DNA of 64,000 nucleotides from Affinirhizobium lemnae (GTDB taxonomy: Bacteria; Pseudomonadota; Alphaproteobacteria; Rhizobiales; Rhizobiaceae), in the NCBI RefSeq assembly GCF_022968395.1, contig NZ_JALJQZ010000005.1, forward strand, positions 62,001-126,000. The letters are read 5' to 3'. Positions 53,258-61,274 of this stretch are shown piece by piece. The notes beneath the pieces were generated by a model that was given only the letters and a program-made list of their open reading frames with translations, made no database searches and had not been told where the DNA came from. Every line of letters starts with the position of its first letter. Positions within the stretch are counted from its first letter, which is position 1. Position numbers and translations under genes: made by a program.

Positions 53258-54268
53258 ATGTTTACCTATACGATCCGGCGACTTATGTTTGCCGTGCCGA
53301 CGCTGCTTGTCATAAGTTTCGTCATTTTTGCGCTGCTTGATCTTGCGCCCAATGATCCGCTCGGCGACCTGCCGCTCACCATACCGCCGGAAGTGCGCGA
53401 GCAGATCCGCGCCTCGATGGGTCTCGATCAGCCTTTCCTCATCCGCTATCTCTTGTGGTTGAAGCAGTTCTTCATCAACGAGCCGCTCAACATCTTCGAA
53501 CAGATGACCGGCATCACCGTTGGCGATGGCGAGCGGATGCGCGTGCTCTCCTGGGCGACCCGCAGCCCGGTCGTCGACCTCATCGTACAACGCATGCCGC
53601 AAACCCTCTGGGTCGTCGGCATGGCCTATCTGTTCGGTGTGCTGATAGCGATACCAGTCGGCGTCATTTCCGCCTATCGCCAGTATTCGATCTTTGACCA
53701 GATCGGCACCTTCGTAACCATGGTCGGCTATTCGGTGCCAACCTTCTTTACCGGCGTCGTGCTGATCGTCATCTTCTCGTCCTACCTGCAATGGTTTCCG
53801 TCGATCTACGACACCAATCTGGTCGTCAACGACTGGTCGAGCTTCGTCCAGCAGGTCAAGCAGATGGTTCTGCCGGTCACGGTTCTGGCGCTCTATAACG
53901 CCTCCCAGATTGCTCGCTTCGTTCGCGCCTCCATGCTGGACAATCTCAGCCAGGATTACGTGCGCACGGCGCGTGCGAAAGGCGTGAAGGAAAAGGCGGT
54001 CCTTCTTGTGCACGTCCTGCGCAACAGCTTGATCCCGGTGGTTACGGTCATTGCGCTGGGTGTCCCGACAATTTTCTCCGGCGCCATCATCACCGAGCAG
54101 ATCTTCCGTGTGAACGGGCTCGGACAACTGCTGATCACGGCAGTTCAGGGCGCCGATATTCCGCTCGTACAAACCCTGACGTTCATCTTTGCGGTCCTGA
54201 TCGTCCTCTTTAACCTGATTGCCGATGTTCTTTACGGCATCCTTGATCCGAGGATCCGCTATGACTGA
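53258..54268 (+). CDS. peptide ABC transporter permease (DppB-type)
   Basis: A 336-residue inner-membrane permease with six TM segments. The N-terminal TYTIRRLMFAVPTLLVIS, the long periplasmic loop after TM1, and the EAA loop DYVRTARAKGVKEKAVLLVH are typical of the DppB family. The stop overlaps the next permease start by 8 nt. Confidence 0.93.
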   Translation: MFTYTIRRLMFAVPTLLVISFVIFALLDLAPNDPLGDLPLTIPPEVREQIRASMGLDQPFLIRYLLWLKQFFINEPLNIFEQMTGITVGDGERMRVLSWATRSPVVDLIVQRMPQTLWVVGMAYLFGVLIAIPVGVISAYRQYSIFDQIGTFVTMVGYSVPTFFTGVVLIVIFSSYLQWFPSIYDTNLVVNDWSSFVQQVKQMVLPVTVLALYNASQIARFVRASMLDNLSQDYVRTARAKGVKEKAVLLVHVLRNSLIPVVTVIALGVPTIFSGAIITEQIFRVNGLGQLLITAVQGADIPLVQTLTFIFAVLIVLFNLIADVLYGILDPRIRYD

Positions 54269-55181
54269 TGCCGTCATTGACCAGCCTGTAACCGCCAAGC
54301 CGGAGATCGAAACGCCCTCGATCCTGTTCTGGAGAAAGTTTCGCAAGCATAAAGGTGGCGTCGCAGGGCTGGTGGTCTTCGCCCTCATCGTCCTGATCGT
54401 CTATGTCGGTCCATTCATCCACACGATTGATCCGAACAAGATCGACATCCGCGCGAAGAATCAGGGCCCTTCCTGGAAGCACCCGTTCGGCACTGACAAC
54501 CTTGGCCATGATATGCTGGCACAGGTCATGGCTGGTGGACAGATCTCGCTGGCCGTGGGCTTGACCGCCATGTTGCTGGCCCTGCTGCTTGGCACTTTGG
54601 TCGGCGTGCTGTCGGGTTATTTCCGCAAGCTCGATGGCCCCTTGATGCGCCTGACGGACCTGTTCCTGGCGCTGCCGCTACTGCCGCTCCTGCTCGTCAT
54701 CATCATGCTGTTTCGCGATACTCTTCGTGCAGCATTCGGTCCGGAGACCGGCATTTTCATCTTGATCGTCTTCGTCATCGGCGTCACAAGCTGGATGCAC
54801 ACTGCCCGTATCGTTCGCGGCGATGTTCTGGCGGTGAAGAGCCAGGAGTTCATCGTGGCGGCGAAAAGCAGTGGCATGAGGGAACATCGCATCGTGCTGC
54901 GTCACATCCTGCCAAATGTGCTCAGCTCGATCATGGTGTCGGCAACGCTTGGGATCGCGGCTGCGATCATCACAGAGTCTGCTCTGTCGTTCCTCGGTCT
55001 CGGATTTCCATCGGACTTCCCGACATGGGGCCGTCTTCTGTTTGACGGGGCGAACTTCCTGCAGCTGACGCCGTCGCGCGTCTTCTGGCCGGGGCTCGCG
55101 ATCTCACTGACCGTTCTTAGCGTCAACTACATTGGCGACGCTGTACGGGACGCACTCGATCCCAGAACCCAGGCCCGCTGA
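54261..55181 (+). CDS. peptide ABC transporter permease (DppC-type)
   Basis: A 306-residue permease with six TM segments. It has GTDNLGHDMLAQVMAGGQIS, the EAA loop QEFIVAAKSSGMREHRIVLR and the C-terminal VNYIGDAVRDALDPR typical of DppC. The start at 54261 overlaps the upstream permease. It works with the double ATPase at 46142-47986. Confidence 0.93.
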   Translation: MTDAVIDQPVTAKPEIETPSILFWRKFRKHKGGVAGLVVFALIVLIVYVGPFIHTIDPNKIDIRAKNQGPSWKHPFGTDNLGHDMLAQVMAGGQISLAVGLTAMLLALLLGTLVGVLSGYFRKLDGPLMRLTDLFLALPLLPLLLVIIMLFRDTLRAAFGPETGIFILIVFVIGVTSWMHTARIVRGDVLAVKSQEFIVAAKSSGMREHRIVLRHILPNVLSSIMVSATLGIAAAIITESALSFLGLGFPSDFPTWGRLLFDGANFLQLTPSRVFWPGLAISLTVLSVNYIGDAVRDALDPRTQAR

Positions 55182-55220: not shown

Positions 55221-55265
55221 CCATCCAGCACACAGAAATCTTTTTTGATTTTTTTTGGAACGGGC

Positions 55266-55290
55266 GGAACCTTGCGGAGGCTGATCCGTT
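55266..55290 (+). promoter_or_regulatory. EcfG-type promoter of a small RNA
   Basis: GGAAC (55266-55270), exactly 16 bp, then CGTT (55287-55290) matches the consensus of the alphaproteobacterial general stress sigma factor EcfG. No coding gene follows before the terminator at 55368. A second GGAAC at 55257 has no CGTT at the right spacing. Confidence 0.78.
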
Positions 55291-55296
55291 GTTGGT

Positions 55297-55412
55297 GTAT
55301 CTGGAAGCGCCCCCGTCCCCCGCCCTTCAAGCTTCCGGATATCTCTTCATCCCCCTCGAAGAGACCCAACGGTCTTGGCTTCTGTAAAAGGAAACCAAGA
55401 CCGTTTCTTTTT
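55297..55412 (+). ncRNA. candidate stress-induced small RNA with C-rich hairpin loops
   Basis: This gene-free stretch begins just after an EcfG-type promoter and ends at an intrinsic terminator, giving a transcript of about 116 nt. It folds into three consecutive hairpins. Hairpin 1 pairs TATCTGGAAGC (55298-55308) with GCTTCCGGATA (55331-55341) around a 22-nt, strongly C-rich loop. Hairpin 2 pairs TCTCTTC (55342-55348) with GAAGAGA (55358-55364) around ATCCCCCTC. Hairpin 3 is the terminator. C-rich loops that can pair with Shine-Dalgarno sequences, and control by the stress sigma factor, recall Caulobacter GsrN and rhizobial anti-SD RNAs. Sequence identity to those was not tested. No ORF of note lies inside. 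Confidence 0.72.
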
Positions 55413-55413
55413 G
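55368..55413 (+). terminator. intrinsic terminator of the small RNA candidate
   Basis: AACGGTCTTGG (55368-55378) and CCAAGACCGTT (55395-55405) form a perfect 11-bp stem, followed by TCTTTTTG. On the opposite strand the stem lies only 70 bp beyond the kinase gene, but there is no T-run in that direction. Confidence 0.88.
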
Positions 55414-55482
55414 TGCGGAATGCAAAACCGACAGTGATACCAAAGGCGCCACGCCTGCGGTGTCTCGATAACGATCGGGAAA

Positions 55483-56493
55483 TTATTCCGACGCGTGTTC
55501 CAATGGAAAAACGAGGCTGTAGCTGATACGATCCAGCGTGATAGCATAGCGCGCCTTGCCGTTGACGGAAGCAGGCACGACGCGCTCCAGAACGGTACTG
55601 CCGAAATTCGCCTTCAGGCTGCCGCCGTCCCTGCCCTCGATATGACGAACCGAATTGGGCAGTCCTTCCTCCCAGCGTATTTCAAGTGAATCCTGACCAT
55701 TCGCCTGCACACGCTGACAGGTCACCTGAATGGCTTGGCCGCTCTTCGAAAAGGATCCATGACTAACCGCATTGACGATCAGTTCATGCAGGGCCAGACC
55801 AAGGTGCAGGGATGCATTCGGACTCAAGAGGACATTATCGCCACTAACCTTGATCAGATGCGCGTTCTCAGGAAGGTATTTCTCAGTCTGCTGCTGCACC
55901 AGTTCATAGAAAAATGCGCCTCGCCAGCTCGAATCCGTAATGAGATCCTGCGACTGCGAAAGCGAATAGAGCCGCCCCCGAAACTTGTTGAGAAATACAT
56001 CCAACGTTACGGAATAGCGTGCCGTCTGCAACGCGATGCTTTGAATAATCGCCAGCAGGTTTTTCGAGCGATGACTGACTTCGCGCAGCAGCGCCCGCAG
56101 AAGTCGCTCCCGATGGCGCTCCTCCGAACGATCAATAATCGTGGTTACGAGATGCATGCCACCCCGTGGCCTGAACACTGCCTGAACCCTGAACTCGTAA
56201 ACTTCGTCGGAGTTCACGGTGAACTCCATATGCCCCTTCTGGCCATGTTCAGTGATGCCATCTTTCAGCAGCTTCAACTTCGCAGCAATTTCCTCACCAA
56301 ACAAACTGGTATCGGTTGGTGTATCGGTCAGCGCCTGCGACCAGGCATCCGGCAGGTTGGTGACAAAAATGTAACGACGCTGGAGATCCTGGATCGTGAC
56401 GCTCGCACCGAGATCCAGGAGAGCGGGCATGAAAAAATCGCGTAACGCCTCACCGCTTTCACCAGCCTGTTGCCATGTCAGCTGATGCGACAA
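55483..56493 (-). CDS. PAS-like sensor histidine kinase of the HWE/HisKA_2 type
   Basis: A 336-residue soluble kinase. An N-terminal PAS-like domain (about residues 20-125) precedes the phosphoacceptor block LREVSHRSKNLLAIIQSIAL (His141), typical of HisKA_2/HWE kinases. ALHELIVNAVSHGSF is the N-box of the ATPase domain. There are no TM segments, so it is cytoplasmic. Kinases of this type control PhyR in the general stress response, and this one lies 312 bp from phyR behind an EcfG-type promoter, giving feedback control. Confidence 0.87.
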   Translation of the reverse strand: MSHQLTWQQAGESGEALRDFFMPALLDLGASVTIQDLQRRYIFVTNLPDAWSQALTDTPTDTSLFGEEIAAKLKLLKDGITEHGQKGHMEFTVNSDEVYEFRVQAVFRPRGGMHLVTTIIDRSEERHRERLLRALLREVSHRSKNLLAIIQSIALQTARYSVTLDVFLNKFRGRLYSLSQSQDLITDSSWRGAFFYELVQQQTEKYLPENAHLIKVSGDNVLLSPNASLHLGLALHELIVNAVSHGSFSKSGQAIQVTCQRVQANGQDSLEIRWEEGLPNSVRHIEGRDGGSLKANFGSTVLERVVPASVNGKARYAITLDRISYSLVFPLEHASE

Positions 56494-56805
56494 TTACGTG
56501 CTCCGCTCTTATCTGCGATACCTGACATATACGCACTCTTGCATATTCGGCCGTGCTGTGCCCCTTATAGGCGGCAACACGGCCGGTCTCAAGCCGATAC
56601 GCAATTAATTTCTGCTCTCTTAAACCGAACGGTCGGACGGCTATCCGGGCCAGACCACTCAGCAATCTGTAGTCGAAGTCTAAAGCTTGGCCCAAGTCAC
56701 AACTGCCGAAGGCATCCGTTTAGGGGTCGACGGCTGAACGCTCAACCATCGCCTTGGTTCCAAACAGAACAGTCATATCAGTGCTATGTATCAATGGCCG
56801 TCTGT
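56494..56805. other. 312-bp gap between phyR and the kinase gene, kinase leader
   Basis: No supported gene. An EcfG-type promoter lies at 56737-56761 (minus strand), leaving a leader of about 235 nt before the kinase start. The leader contains a strong hairpin CGGCCGTG (56548-56555) / CACGGCCG (56578-56585). An open frame of 78 codons on the minus strand (56459-56695) has no recognisable features and overlaps the kinase start, so it is not called. Confidence 0.5.
56737..56761 (-). promoter_or_regulatory. EcfG-type promoter of the stress kinase gene
   Basis: On the minus strand GGAAC (56761-56757), 16 bp, then CGTT (56740-56737). It points to the kinase gene at 56493, so the kinase would be induced by the sigma factor it ultimately controls. 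Confidence 0.75.
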
Positions 56806-57600
56806 TCAAGCAGCAGCCTTGACAGCCTCATTGAAGAAGAGCGCTTGGCTGATCAAAGCTTTGACCATGTCAGGGTTGAACGGCTTCGTCACCAAGAAGG
56901 CGGGCTCCGGCCGCTCGCCTGTCAGCAGGCGCTCCGGAAACGCGGTAATAAAGATGACTGGGACGCTGGAGGATTTCAGAATTTCATTCACGGCATCGAT
57001 ACCAGAACTGCCGTCTGCCAGCTGAATGTCGGCCAAAACCATTTTCGGGCTCGAACTCTGGAAAAGAGCAACGGCTTCCTTGTGCGTGCGGGCAATGCCA
57101 GTCACGCGGTGGCCAAGATCCTGCACCATCTGCTCGATATCGAGAGCAATGAGCGGCTCGTCTTCGATGATCATAATATCGGTCGCAACCTGACGCGAGA
57201 TCTCGCGCGATGCCTCATCCAGCAGGCGCGTAACCTCATTGACGTCGACGTCCAATATTTCCGCCGTTTCCTCCAAGGTGAAACCCTCGACAGAAATTAG
57301 GAGGAAGGCGTGTCGCGCCTGCGATGGAAGCGACGCAAGATTGGCAACGGCACGCTGCTCCCACGCGAAGGGCGACTCGATTGGACGGATCTCGATTGCA
57401 GTGGAACCAAAGATTGCGACGAAAAGTTTATACAGCGAAACGCGGTCCTTTGAACTTTCCGGAAAGATGGAAATATCGGCAATCAAAGCTTCCAGGACCG
57501 CCGCGACATATGCGTCTCCCGAGGTCTGCGAGCCTGTTACGGCGCGGGCGTAACGGCGCAGATAAGGAAGGTGGGACGCAACGCGAGTGGTAAGTGACAT
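56806..57600 (-). CDS. phyR: PhyR general stress response anti-anti-sigma regulator
   Basis: A 264-residue protein with the diagnostic PhyR architecture. An N-terminal sigma-factor-like domain (about 1-135; HLPYLRRYARAVTGSQ and LPSQARHAFLLISVEGFTLE) is followed by a C-terminal receiver domain with E146/D147, phosphoacceptor D191 (VLADIQLADG), T219 and K239 (TKPF). When phosphorylated it binds NepR and frees EcfG. It is divergent from nepR-ecfG, and an EcfG-type promoter precedes it. Confidence 0.96.
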   Translation of the reverse strand: MSLTTRVASHLPYLRRYARAVTGSQTSGDAYVAAVLEALIADISIFPESSKDRVSLYKLFVAIFGSTAIEIRPIESPFAWEQRAVANLASLPSQARHAFLLISVEGFTLEETAEILDVDVNEVTRLLDEASREISRQVATDIMIIEDEPLIALDIEQMVQDLGHRVTGIARTHKEAVALFQSSSPKMVLADIQLADGSSGIDAVNEILKSSSVPVIFITAFPERLLTGERPEPAFLVTKPFNPDMVKALISQALFFNEAVKAAA

Positions 57601-57643: not shown

Positions 57644-57668
57644 AACGGTAACCTAGAAAAAAAGTTCC
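57644..57668 (-). promoter_or_regulatory. EcfG-type promoter of phyR
   Basis: On the minus strand GGAAC (57668-57664), 16 bp, then CGTT (57647-57644), 44 bp before the phyR start. Its -35 element forms one arm of the inverted repeat at 57657-57688. Confidence 0.82.
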
Positions 57669-57676
57669 GTCTTCAG

Positions 57677-57701
57677 GGAACTTTTTTTATTCGAGCGCAT
57701 T
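57677..57701 (+). promoter_or_regulatory. EcfG-type promoter of nepR-ecfG
   Basis: GGAAC (57677-57681), 16 bp, then CATT (57698-57701), one base from the CGTT consensus, 35 bp before nepR. This gives autoregulation of the sigma factor, perhaps weaker than the phyR promoter because of the -10 mismatch. Confidence 0.65.
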
Positions 57702-57736: not shown

Positions 57737-57952
57737 ATGAGTGAAGACGAAACCAGAAACAAAGAAAAGATGAACACACCACAATCGAGCAACTTCCGGC
57801 CGGGCGCCATGCTACCGAACGCTTCGATTTCGCGCAAATTGCGGGAATTTTATGATGCGGTTCAGGAAGAAGGCATTCCGGATCGCTTTCTCGATCTCTT
57901 GGAACGTCTCGAAGAGGCTGAAAAGAGTGCAAAATCGGTGAATGCGAAATGA
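57737..57952 (+). CDS. nepR: NepR anti-sigma factor
   Basis: A 71-residue protein with the NepR core ISRKLREFYDAVQEEGIPDR followed by FLDLLERL, two short helices that grip either EcfG or the sigma-like domain of PhyR. The N-terminus is disordered-looking and polar. The ATG at 57737 is used (a GTG precedes it directly). The stop overlaps the ecfG start (ATGA), fixing their stoichiometry. Confidence 0.93.
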   Translation: MSEDETRNKEKMNTPQSSNFRPGAMLPNASISRKLREFYDAVQEEGIPDRFLDLLERLEEAEKSAKSVNAK

Positions 57953-58515
57953 TCACGGATCAAGAAAATGACGATCGCGCTTTTAAGCGAGACCTTTTGG
58001 CATCCTTGCCAAATCTTCGTGCTTTTGCGGTCTCACTGACGGGCCGTCACGACAAGGCTGATGACCTGGTGCAAGATACTATCATGAAGGCCTGGGGAAA
58101 CCAGAAGAGTTTCACGGCGGGCACAAACATGCGCGCCTGGCTGTTCACGATACTTCGCAACGAATTTTACAGCCAGATGCGCAAGCGTGGACGTGAAGTT
58201 CAGGATAGCGACGGCCTGTTCAGCGAGCGGTTCTCAGTGCATCCTGAACAGTATGGCCGTCTGGATCTGCAGGACTTCCGCAAGGCGCTGGATACTTTGC
58301 CCGACGATCAGCGTGAAGCCATCATTCTGGTGGGTGCTGCAGGCTTTGCCTATGAAGAAGCGGCGACGATCTGCGGCTGTGCCGTCGGCACGATCAAAAG
58401 CCGCGTTTCTCGTGCCCGCGCAAGGCTTCAGGAAATTCTGGGTGTTTCCGGCGAAGGCGATTTCGGTCCCGATCCCGGCGATGCCGCAATCACAGCAAGA
58501 GCTTTCGGAAGCTAG
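57949..58515 (+). CDS. ecfG: ECF sigma factor EcfG (general stress response)
   Basis: A 188-residue ECF15-type sigma factor. Region 2 reads RAFAVSLTGRHDKADDLVQDT and NMRAWLFTILRNEFYSQMRK. Region 4 reads LPDDQREAIILVGAAGFAYE and CAVGTIKSRVSRARARL. It directs RNA polymerase to GGAAC-N16/17-CGTT promoters, five candidates of which lie in this window. In rhizobia the gene is also called rpoE2. It is co-transcribed with nepR and converges on a response regulator gene, overlapping its stop by 4 nt. Confidence 0.95.
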   Translation: MITDQENDDRAFKRDLLASLPNLRAFAVSLTGRHDKADDLVQDTIMKAWGNQKSFTAGTNMRAWLFTILRNEFYSQMRKRGREVQDSDGLFSERFSVHPEQYGRLDLQDFRKALDTLPDDQREAIILVGAAGFAYEEAATICGCAVGTIKSRVSRARARLQEILGVSGEGDFGPDPGDAAITARAFGS

Positions 58516-58904
58516 AACCGCTTCGCGGCAGCATAAACGTCCTGCACCACCGCTACCAATCTCTCATCATCGAACGGTTTCAACATAACAGGAATTCCTT
58601 GAAATCCCGGAACTCCTGAACGGTGACGGCTGTCCACGGACGTAAAAACAAATCCAGCGCCCGCCTCCCGCAGGCGCTGGATTCTCCCCCATAGAACCTC
58701 CGTTACGAAATCGATGTCAATCAACATGACATCGAACGCCCCTTCCTTAAGCAAGGTGTCGACATCGCGCGGCATGGCAATCGTGACGCAGCACCCGAAT
58801 GCCTCTCCTAGAACCTGCTCGGCTTCCATAGCCACCAGATAGTGTGTATCGATGACCAGAAGGCGCACGCGAATGTCCCGGATGGTGAAACCAAGGAAAG
58901 CCAT
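58512..58904 (-). CDS. single-domain receiver protein near the stress locus
   Basis: A 130-residue protein that is little more than a receiver domain. LLVIDTHYLVAMEAE replaces the usual acidic pair with only one Asp, the phosphoacceptor Asp is in VMLIDIDFVTE, a Ser/Thr is in FVFTSVDS, and the conserved Lys is in MLKPFD. It lacks an output domain. Its position converging on ecfG suggests it works in the same phosphorelay, as a phosphate sink or shuttle (inference). The start at 58904 covers the domain; an ATG at 58943 would add 13 residues. Confidence 0.75.
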   Translation of the reverse strand: MAFLGFTIRDIRVRLLVIDTHYLVAMEAEQVLGEAFGCCVTIAMPRDVDTLLKEGAFDVMLIDIDFVTEVLWGRIQRLREAGAGFVFTSVDSRHRSGVPGFQGIPVMLKPFDDERLVAVVQDVYAAAKRF

Positions 58905-58999
58905 AGAACATTCATGGAACGGTGGGTCATTTAAAAAAGACATAGCAGCACTCAGTTTTTCTTCTATTGTCTTTTTCCCATGCCAAAAATCGGTCCGCC

Positions 59000-59758
59000 A
59001 TGGCTCAAAGCAAATCATTCGCTGCTGTCCGCATCCCCTGTGAACTCTGTCCGTTACGTGCTCGGGAGACATTCCGTGATTTTGATTCGACCGAACTTGG
59101 GTTCGTGTCCTCCTTCAAGATTGCGGAACTTCTCCTCGAACCGGGAACGACAATCATTGACGAAGGCCAGCGCCACCCACAACTCTACACGGCTCTCGCA
59201 GGATGGGGCTTCCGTTACAAGATCCTGGAGGATGGGCGTCGGCAGGTCCTGAACTACGTGCTGCCCGGGGACCTGATTGGCCTGCAAGGCAATCTGATGT
59301 CGGAAATGCTGCATTCGGTCGAGGCGCTGACGAAGATGACCCTTTGTGTCTTCGAGCGCGAACGTCTGACCGCTCTCTTCCAGAACCATCCGTCGCTGGC
59401 CTATGACCTCACCTGGATTGCCTCGCGCGAGGAATCCATACTGGATGAACATCTTCTCTCCGTCGGGCGCCGCACGGCTCTGGAGCGCGCGGCCTATCTT
59501 CTCGCCTTCCTGGATCACCGGGCTCAGGCCACCGGCGTTTTCCCCGAAGAAGGGCCGAAGGTTCTGCCCCTGACCCAGCAGCATGTTGCCGATACACTGG
59601 GACTGTCGCTCGTCCACACGAACAAGACATTGAGGCGTCTGTCGGATGCGGGTGTCGTGCGCTGGCTGGATCGCGGTTCGGAGGTTCTGGAGCGCGGCAA
59701 GCTCTTCGATATTGCAGGCTGGCAACCATCTGTCGAAGGCATGCGCCCATTCATCTGA
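59000..59758 (+). CDS. Crp/Fnr-family transcriptional regulator
   Basis: A 252-residue regulator. A cyclic-nucleotide-binding-like beta roll (about 30-140; IIDEGQRHPQLYTALAGWG, VLPGDLIGLQGN) is followed by a winged helix at about 170-230 (LPLTQQHVADTLGLSLVHTNKTLRRL). The N-terminus has C-x2-C (IPCELCPLR), as in Fnr/FixK relatives, but the additional Cys needed for a 4Fe-4S cluster are not evident. It is divergent from the receiver gene. Target genes unknown. Confidence 0.88.
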   Translation: MAQSKSFAAVRIPCELCPLRARETFRDFDSTELGFVSSFKIAELLLEPGTTIIDEGQRHPQLYTALAGWGFRYKILEDGRRQVLNYVLPGDLIGLQGNLMSEMLHSVEALTKMTLCVFERERLTALFQNHPSLAYDLTWIASREESILDEHLLSVGRRTALERAAYLLAFLDHRAQATGVFPEEGPKVLPLTQQHVADTLGLSLVHTNKTLRRLSDAGVVRWLDRGSEVLERGKLFDIAGWQPSVEGMRPFI

Positions 59759-60372: not shown

Positions 60373-60816
60373 TTAAGCGCTTGGGTTCGATGGATCGTTT
60401 CCACCGCCCAGAAGCTTCAATGCGATGAGGCCCACACCGCCCGATATGGCGGCGGCCATAAGCGGTTTCGATTTCACCAGCAGCGGCAGCGCTGAGACCG
60501 CCGCTGTCAACATCATGGCCCGGCTGCCTGCGGCTGCCTCGCGACGACGCTTTTCATCGGCCTTGTTCTTGATGGACACCGCCAGAAGAATAATCAGGAC
60601 GATGAGCAGTGCCCCACCTGCAACCGATGCAAGGGCAGTTACCGGGCCGACCTTGCGAGAGAGATAAACTGCAAGCGCTGCAATGCCGGTTCCATAGGCC
60701 GTCAGTGCAAAGAGCGCAGCAATGGCATAGAGAATGACATTGCGCTTGGTCCGCTGGGCGAAACCTCGCACATCCGACGTCAACAGCGAGGCCAGAAGAG
60801 GCGCAAGTGCACCCAT
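60373..60816 (-). CDS. small membrane protein (phage-holin/superfamily III-like), stress operon
   Basis: A 147-residue protein with two long hydrophobic segments in the first half (VILYAIAALFALTAYGTGIA and GGALLIVLIILLAV). A basic, Lys/Arg-rich middle (KNKADEKRRREAAAGSR) is followed by a further Gly-rich hydrophobic stretch. It starts 1 bp after the DUF883 gene stops and ends 26 bp before dps. Genes like this accompany DUF883 proteins in many proteobacteria as envelope-associated stress proteins. No function is known. Confidence 0.7.
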   Translation of the reverse strand: MGALAPLLASLLTSDVRGFAQRTKRNVILYAIAALFALTAYGTGIAALAVYLSRKVGPVTALASVAGGALLIVLIILLAVSIKNKADEKRRREAAAGSRAMMLTAAVSALPLLVKSKPLMAAAISGGVGLIALKLLGGGNDPSNPSA

Positions 60817-60817
60817 G

Positions 60818-61144
60818 TTAGCGACGCGACAGAAGCGCGAACAGGAAGCCGATGCCGGCAGCGATTGCCACAGACTGAAGCGGCTTTGTGCGGATCTGGC
60901 GCTCGATATCCTTTTCGATCGACTGAAACTGCGCACGGGCAGAATCAAGAGCCTGTGCCGAAGCATCCATGGCCTCATTCGAGGCACGACGCGCCTTGTA
61001 CTTCAGGTCATCAGCCTTGTTGGATCCGGCAGCGGCCACGGAACGGGCAAGGGCCGCAAGGTCTTCGCGAAGTTGCTGGAGCTGCTTTTCGATATCGCCT
61101 TCAGAACCGGTACGCGTGAAATCATTCGGTGAATTCATGGACAT
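60818..61144 (-). CDS. DUF883/ElaB-YqjD-like membrane-tail protein
   Basis: A 108-residue protein made of one long amphipathic coiled coil (IEKQLQQLREDLAALARSVA, then KYKARRASNEAMD) and a C-terminal glycine-zipper TM helix (SVAIAAGIGFLFALLSRR). E. coli ElaB/YqjD relatives are stationary-phase proteins that tether ribosomes to the inner membrane. Four ATGs occur in a row; the one at 61144 has AGGAG exactly 6 nt upstream. It is first in the operon driven by the EcfG-type promoter at 61250. Confidence 0.8.
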   Translation of the reverse strand: MSMNSPNDFTRTGSEGDIEKQLQQLREDLAALARSVAAAGSNKADDLKYKARRASNEAMDASAQALDSARAQFQSIEKDIERQIRTKPLQSVAIAAGIGFLFALLSRR

Positions 61145-61249
61145 CATCATCTCCTGATAATTGAATAAGACCCGGAAAGCAGATCGGCTCTGGCGCCAAT
61201 CGTCCCCCACTGCGACGAGCACCCCGCAGGCTCTCGTTTTCATGCCGTC

Positions 61250-61274
61250 AACGCCGATCTCTGCAATTTGTTCC
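61250..61274 (-). promoter_or_regulatory. EcfG-type promoter of the DUF883-membrane protein-dps operon
   Basis: On the minus strand GGAAC (61274-61270), 16 bp, then CGTT (61253-61250), about 106 bp before the DUF883 start. It places dps and its two partners in the general stress regulon. Confidence 0.78.

Follow-up and report, generated by a model that had tools for sequence, protein, structure and literature searches.

In alphaproteobacteria, the general stress response (GSR) has been understood chiefly as a switch of transcription. Among rhizobial RNAs, ar14 (Rfam RF02344), also called NfeR1, carries C-rich loops of the CUCCUCCC type. In the literature searched, the worked-out RNA arm of the GSR is GsrN of Caulobacter, which is under EcfG-class control, carries a C-rich 5' loop, typically lies near the GSR locus in Caulobacteraceae and is stabilised by Hfq (PMC5869019). 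Its BLASTn matches were confined to Caulobacteraceae, and counterparts in Rhizobium etli, Sinorhizobium meliloti, Brucella abortus, Agrobacterium radiobacter and others were predicted from place, promoter and C-rich loop (PMC5869019).

A rhizobial RNA studied by experiment is ReC64 of R. etli CFN42. It lies downstream of tcrY-phyR in the ecfG1 region behind the EcfG consensus GGAAC-N16-CGTT, its start was mapped by 5' RACE, and its length was reported as 88 nt (PMC3892343). Its promoter fusion lost its activity in ecfG1 mutants, and in E. coli EcfG switched it on (PMC3892343). On a Northern blot it gave a band plus an unexplained larger band (PMC2881028); it was detected in both exponential and stationary phase (PMC2881028, PMC3892343), and salt shock increased its level (PMC4167512). 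The further carriers named are R. etli CIAT 652 and R. leguminosarum 3841. Eight sRNA-bearing intergenic regions of S. meliloti are responsive to RpoE2 (PMC3616915). PmaR of Agrobacterium has a long stem with an open C-rich, target-pairing loop and is highest in stationary phase; unlike the RNA described below, it forms a single spoon-like structure and lies between two hypothetical genes, and the accessible text makes no mention of EcfG control (PMC6234868).

We analyzed a window of 64,000 nucleotides of Affinirhizobium lemnae DNA. On its plus strand, GGAAC at 55266-55270 and CGTT at 55287-55290, separated by 16 bases, form an exact EcfG-type promoter motif (55266-55290), as the earlier note had claimed; the window holds four GGAAC-N16-CGTT sites, against 0.40 expected by chance. 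The transcript is predicted to start at about 55297, seven bases beyond CGTT, and to end at 55413, with a length of about 117 nt. The three consecutive hairpins that the note had seen behind the promoter were borne out, since the sequence from 55296 to 55413 folds at -44.9 kcal/mol (z = -7.1) and none of 200 shuffles equalled it. Hairpin 1 (55297-55342) has 12 pairs and a large, C-rich loop, GCCCCCGUCCCCCGCCCUUCAA, at 55309-55330, so that a C-rich loop in the 5' hairpin, as in GsrN, is present. Hairpin 2 (55343-55363) reads CUCUUC-AUCCCCCUC-GAAGAG, with its loop at 55349-55357. Hairpin 3 with its U-rich tail (55368-55413, hairpin proper 55368-55405) is a predicted intrinsic terminator. To call it a textbook one, as had been done, was slightly generous: hairpin and tail are there, and a strict terminator scan reported no terminator at hairpin 3, probably because its stem has one mismatch, which is missing in many relatives in the alignment.

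The RNA is flanked on one side by an oligopeptide permease gene (54219-55181) and on the other by a convergent gene for an HWE histidine kinase (55483-56493, minus strand; Pfam HWE_HK, E 2.7e-22), which occupies the place of tcrY in R. etli. Further along lie phyR, encoding the anti-sigma factor antagonist (56806-57600, minus strand; Pfam PhyR_sigma2 and Response_reg), and a plus-strand reading frame (57737-57952, start at 57737 or 57770) that we take, from its position and with no profile match, to be probably the anti-sigma factor gene nepR. This frame overlaps the gene of a sigma factor with Pfam Sigma70_r2 and Sigma70_r4_2 domains (57949-58515, plus strand), which adjoins phyR and nepR and is, to judge from these neighbours, probably the general stress sigma factor gene ecfG. 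The earlier note was also right that no coding gene follows the RNA on its strand: the annotated cluster has none until nepR at 57737, the adjacent kinase gene being convergent.

Like the window RNA, ReC64 is intergenic, lies on the phyR-kinase side of the ecfG region and has an EcfG promoter directly upstream. The window RNA is thus its positional counterpart, an equivalence that rests on place and promoter; the reported length of ReC64 is 88 nt and that predicted here about 117 nt. It shares a C-rich 5' loop and, very probably, EcfG-class control with GsrN, and differs in having two C-rich hairpins before the terminator and in that pairing with the katG leader found no support here. With ar14 it shares C-rich loops, but it does not match that Rfam family: the ar14 model gave no hit in the window at its gathering threshold, nor any up to E 10. 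The ar7 model (RF02342) scored 14.6 bits (E 1.3), below its gathering cut-off of 60 bits; in the covariance search no Rfam family fitted the window RNA, and the plasmid collection gave no match to it. The exact loop string was not found in the running text of papers, and among the openly accessible papers on ReC64, GsrN and rhizobial EcfG with sRNA there was no target study of this RNA. The element had been described as unannotated, which is true of Rfam; as a kind it had already been published, as ReC64 and as GsrN-like predictions. The additions made here are its sequence type, called type A below and absent from Rfam, the recognition of a second type, B, and the extent of the position-locked family.

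To assess conservation, we searched 100 genomes at the DNA level and found matches in 62, comprising all 57 of the genus that were among the 100, the window's own included (worst E 1.5e-7), and marginal matches (E 9e-4 to 0.1) in 5 of the 43 genomes outside it. The exact two-loop pattern occurs in 49 named stretches, which come from Neorhizobium, Pseudorhizobium, Endobacterium, Xaviernesmea, Aliirhizobium, strains labelled Rhizobium, one strain labelled Shinella and other Rhizobiales; the named carriers of ReC64 are not among these named carriers. We retrieved 60 copies, 57 primary and three extra, and used 57 distinct sequences for pair counts. GGAAC-N16-CGTT, with identical spacing and a varying spacer sequence, stands upstream of 60/60 copies (58 listed directly; all 60 were required to carry the motif in a later step).

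On the alignment, 92.7% of the cells under the proposed structure are paired, against at most 52% in slid controls. Changes on both sides of a pair were found in 21 of 33 pairs, above each slid control and above the shuffle mean of 12.1, with 0/500 shuffles as high; the number of further pair types, one of five covariation measures, did not exceed the shuffles (76/500 reach the observed value). Hairpin 1 contributes two-sided changes in 8 of 12 pairs, its two outermost pairs being poorly kept, and hairpin 3 in 13 of 15, with some terminator pairs poorly kept. All six pairs of hairpin 2 are invariant across the 57 distinct sequences, so this hairpin yields no evidence from covariation. G-U cells outnumber A-C cells by 76 to 37 over the 33 pairs and, once four ragged pairs are removed, by 58 to 4, a bias in favour of the plus strand. 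As for the loops, CCCCCUC in loop 2 is present in 60/60 copies, with four loop variants overall, and loop 1 keeps its C-GU-C-runs with slightly variable run lengths. Single-sequence folds leave GUCCCC of loop 1 entirely unpaired in 38/60 copies and CCCCCUC of loop 2 in 55/60. Conservation of the stems and C-rich loops in related genomes, on which the earlier note had staked its proposal, was found: there is covariation in stems 1 and 3, no variation in the pairs of hairpin 2, and the C-runs are kept.

A mechanical 93-aa frame opening with TTG (55245-55526) overlaps the element, and in principle this could be the coding sequence of a small stress protein and not a regulatory RNA. We regard this as extremely improbable, as the frame is not kept in relatives and has no Pfam match, and the sequence changes follow the stems. 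Further, the distance between the loop anchors is spread over three frames (26, 26 and 6 of 58), in line with a noncoding element. The promoter motif, the fold with its conservation, the genomic place and the strand bias are established here, and comparison of the sequences identifies the element as a genuine small RNA gene that reads from the plus strand behind an EcfG promoter.

The primary copies adjoin the histidine kinase, PhyR and EcfG genes in 57/57 loci, and a related permease gene lies on the opposite flank in 56 of them; the remaining locus, L049, has just a distant one (35% identical). With the kinase gene next to the RNA throughout and convergent with it in 53 loci, one might suppose that the RNA acts in cis, as an antisense or 3' partner that tunes the kinase mRNA. 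We consider this very unlikely: the predicted end at 55413 falls 70 bases short of the end of the kinase gene, the RNA is flipped and no longer antisense in 4/57 loci (L049-L052), the extra copies in L095-L097 lie away from GSR genes and keep promoter and C-runs, and S. meliloti has no histidine kinase gene between the RNA and rsiB1. Retention of the promoter in the four flipped loci is as expected of an independent gene.

In L049-L052, the RNA gene and its promoter are turned together relative to the kinase gene, which amounts to a small natural inversion. The three extra copies, L095:8248-8361, L096:8324-8436 and L097:8391-8503, retain the EcfG promoter and both C-rich loops, and beside each of them stands a divergent ar14 RNA (L095:8498-8619, L096:8060-8181 and L097:8643-8763), so that two C-loop RNAs are arranged head to head.

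Some other sigma factor might read the promoter match, or the RNA might not be under stress control; overlapping motifs for SigA and RpoH were given for ReC64 in an RNA-seq study (PMC4167512). This too has a low probability, about as low as action in cis, given that GGAAC-N16-CGTT is kept in 60/60 copies despite a changing spacer and that the ReC64 fusion, as reported, needs ecfG1 and is activated by EcfG in E. coli (PMC3892343). The start site, the transcript and EcfG dependence have been established by others for this R. etli counterpart; for the window strain, EcfG dependence, like loop pairing and any target, is what we infer. The earlier proposal that the general stress sigma factor drives a small RNA here is strongly supported by promoter conservation, synteny, covariation and the EcfG1 dependence of ReC64.

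Taking these data together, our preferred reading, to which we give a probability of roughly three in four, is a free-standing EcfG-driven sRNA gene of about 117 nt whose C-rich loops most likely pair in trans with G-rich stretches of mRNAs. Under stress, PhyR would pull NepR off the sigma factor and so free EcfG, and RNA polymerase with EcfG would transcribe the RNA rightward until its own terminator ends the transcript. The two exposed C-rich loops would then pair in trans with G-rich parts of several mRNAs, above all in their Shine-Dalgarno regions, and this pairing would alter the translation or stability of the targets during general stress. The loops are likely to be the working parts of the RNA. 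Their pairing with Shine-Dalgarno sequences may be suspected from the strongly kept C-runs, with katG being without support.

To extend the comparison to other genera, we built a covariance model, R1, from the genus. Against 297 family genomes at E 0.01 it gave nine matches, five in the genus and four at 29 to 44 bits; one of these four, L157, adjoins PhyR and EcfG genes and has a promoter one letter off (GCAAC-N16-CGTT), and the other three do not adjoin them. Searched order-wide at E 0.1, it matched 12/297 genomes, two of the genus and ten at 22 to 32 bits. Eight weak loci (L158-L165, three from the family-wide search and five of the ten from the order-wide search) had no GSR genes within the 17 kb retrieved and were treated as chance. 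The earlier note had suggested a covariance search in Rhizobiales; R1 matches did turn up at the expected spot and strand in other genera, but strong scores were confined to the genus.

We also collected GSR loci from 60 of 126 genomes with an EcfG match, taken mostly from the top of the list and mostly one per genus; with L157 these made 61 loci, a few of them truncated at the edge of a contig, from 55 genera. They contain 329 GGAAN-N15-17-CGTT sites, 30 of which lie beyond the kinase or PhyR gene on the RNA strand. At least one unpaired run of four C followed the site in 16 of the 30 at this expected spot and in 11 of the 299 elsewhere (Fisher 2e-12), figures that are descriptive because the zone was set after a first look at the data. 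Two or more unpaired C-runs followed 12/30 against 1/299 sites, and 14 of the 30 sites at the expected spot had none. R1 matched 15 times up to E 1 in the 61 non-genus loci, 12 times at the expected place and strand; three type B RNAs were among its matches with weak scores, type B scoring 16 to 22 bits under R1. Combining the promoter rule with R1 and the type B model R2 placed a C-loop RNA at the spot in 29/61 loci and 25/55 genera, again a descriptive count, since the place rule was likewise set after a look at the data; by the same three means, 32/61 GSR loci had no C-loop RNA. In one locus, a promoter-led C-loop RNA with three C-runs (L195:7434-7566) sits near EcfG on the opposite strand and away from the kinase and PhyR genes, as if moved.

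Type B comprises eight RNAs, from seven genera plus S. meliloti Ak57, at the same spot as type A. Its first hairpin is small, with a loop like CGCCCCCA, and often lies within an outer stem in single folds; the second is ACUCAC - C-run - GUGAGU, and the terminator is CAGCCAGUGC...GCACUGGCUG. The consensus fold keeps the three hairpins and not the outer stem, and two-sided changes occur in 5/23 pairs, a thin covariation signal. Seven type B RNAs could be measured of twelve tried: from the start to the end of hairpin 2 they span 77-89 nt, and to the end of the terminator stem 115-125 nt. In S. meliloti, the promoter reads GGAAC-N16-CATT and lies downstream of rsiB1.

At E 0.001, R2, which was built from S. 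meliloti and the seven genera, matched 36/199 family genomes, 23 of them at 51 bits or more (13 genera; seven of these 23 supplied the model), including Shinella sp. PSBB067 with 63.8 bits. Wherever the EcfG position was known (17 of the 23), the strong match lay within 3 kb of it, which also holds for 10/10 once the model's own seven are excluded; the weaker matches (<51 bits) were away from EcfG in all 11 weak-only genomes with EcfG listed. The window copy was missed by R2 both in the genome search (E 0.001) and in a search of that copy's locus (E 0.1). Both R1 and R2 have matches in L157 and L166, and on the type A copy L056 R2 scores 18.6 bits at the RNA's place; R2 also scores the opposite strand of its own RNAs weakly, so values near 20 bits mean little. 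Types A and B are likely of common descent, for which alignment gives no proof.

Loop 2 of the window RNA, AUCCCCCUC, recurs in S. meliloti as AUCCCCCCUC, carried there by another stem. As far as these sequences go, place, promoter and C-run loops outlast the stems across genera, which favours base-pairing by the loops. This bears on the view that the RNA is mainly protein-binding or a decoy, its C-rich loops being protein sites and not anti-Shine-Dalgarno elements. Hairpin 2 is frozen within the genus down to the six invariant pairs of its stem, more than plain loop pairing needs, and GsrN is stabilised by Hfq (PMC5869019). However, other genera replace the hairpin 2 stem and retain the C-run loop, which points to the loop; we therefore judge protein binding unlikely, though less so than either action in cis or use of another sigma factor.

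Beyond pairing in trans by the window RNA, we tentatively propose, at somewhat less than even odds, that Rhizobiaceae keep an EcfG-driven RNA at a fixed GSR spot, with stems rebuilt from one genus to the next and two or three C-run loops persisting, which would serve as a broad translational arm that masks many Shine-Dalgarno sites at once. As a corollary, the larger ReC64 band would be the whole RNA, at about 125 nt, and the smaller one a stable 5' product of cleavage behind hairpin 2, much as GsrN is processed, since the type B span from start to hairpin 2 (77-89 nt) suits the 88-nt band. That many rhizobial genera have an RNA with C-run loops behind an EcfG promoter at this one spot makes the question of an RNA arm testable in laboratory strains of Neorhizobium and Sinorhizobium, and our alignments and the models R1 and R2 fill a place where Rfam has none.

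In the search for targets, leader G-run counts did not support katG, the target of GsrN, while stopping short of excluding it. Of 23 katG loci, five (L256-L260) were left out of the leader count because the start used lay within the gene; among the 18 leaders with a readable start, a run of at least four G within the 90 bases before ATG, the stretch covered, was found in two, neither of which belongs to the window genome or to one of the two relatives closest to it. PF00141 is absent from 6/30 genomes of the genus. In the window's own genome, Shine-Dalgarno-anchored GAGGGGGA sites number 12, against five for the reversed pattern; three of the 12 open frames of more than 100 aa, and the set gave no convincing conserved target. 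Three genes, which we presume from their sequences, and not from a profile search, to be of EamA, DUF72 and DUF1304 type, were followed in relatives. The EamA-type gene was set aside because its site apparently falls within upstream coding sequence in 29 of the 30 loci printed. The DUF72-type gene was also dropped: two of the three nearest genomes have its site, but it could not be made out in the remaining 17 of the 20 loci printed (30 returned), in several of which the start is not well placed. The DUF1304-type gene may at most be a weak lead: a run of at least four G lies within 20 bases of its start in 12/13 relatives, and the gene had no match in 17/30 genomes.

Several other features of the locus were observed. 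A palindrome, AAAAAAAGTTCC...GGAACTTTTTTT, lies at 57644-57688 between phyR and nepR-ecfG and contains the EcfG-type promoter of phyR (57644-57668, minus strand). Exact EcfG-type promoters on the minus strand are also found upstream of the kinase gene (56737-56761) and upstream of two small frames (61250-61274; frames 60818-61243 and 60373-60987), the products of which presumably resemble ElaB/YqjD-type membrane stress proteins. A minus-strand frame adjoining ecfG (58512-59072) looks receiver-domain-like by eye with no Pfam match, and has 31-56% identity where found beyond the two nearest relatives. Among the S. meliloti sequences, CP090106.1 (L341) is titled plasmid pSymB, but it is 3.7 Mb long and contains rsiA1, rsiB1 and an ecfG-type sigma gene; the record is probably a mislabelled chromosome.
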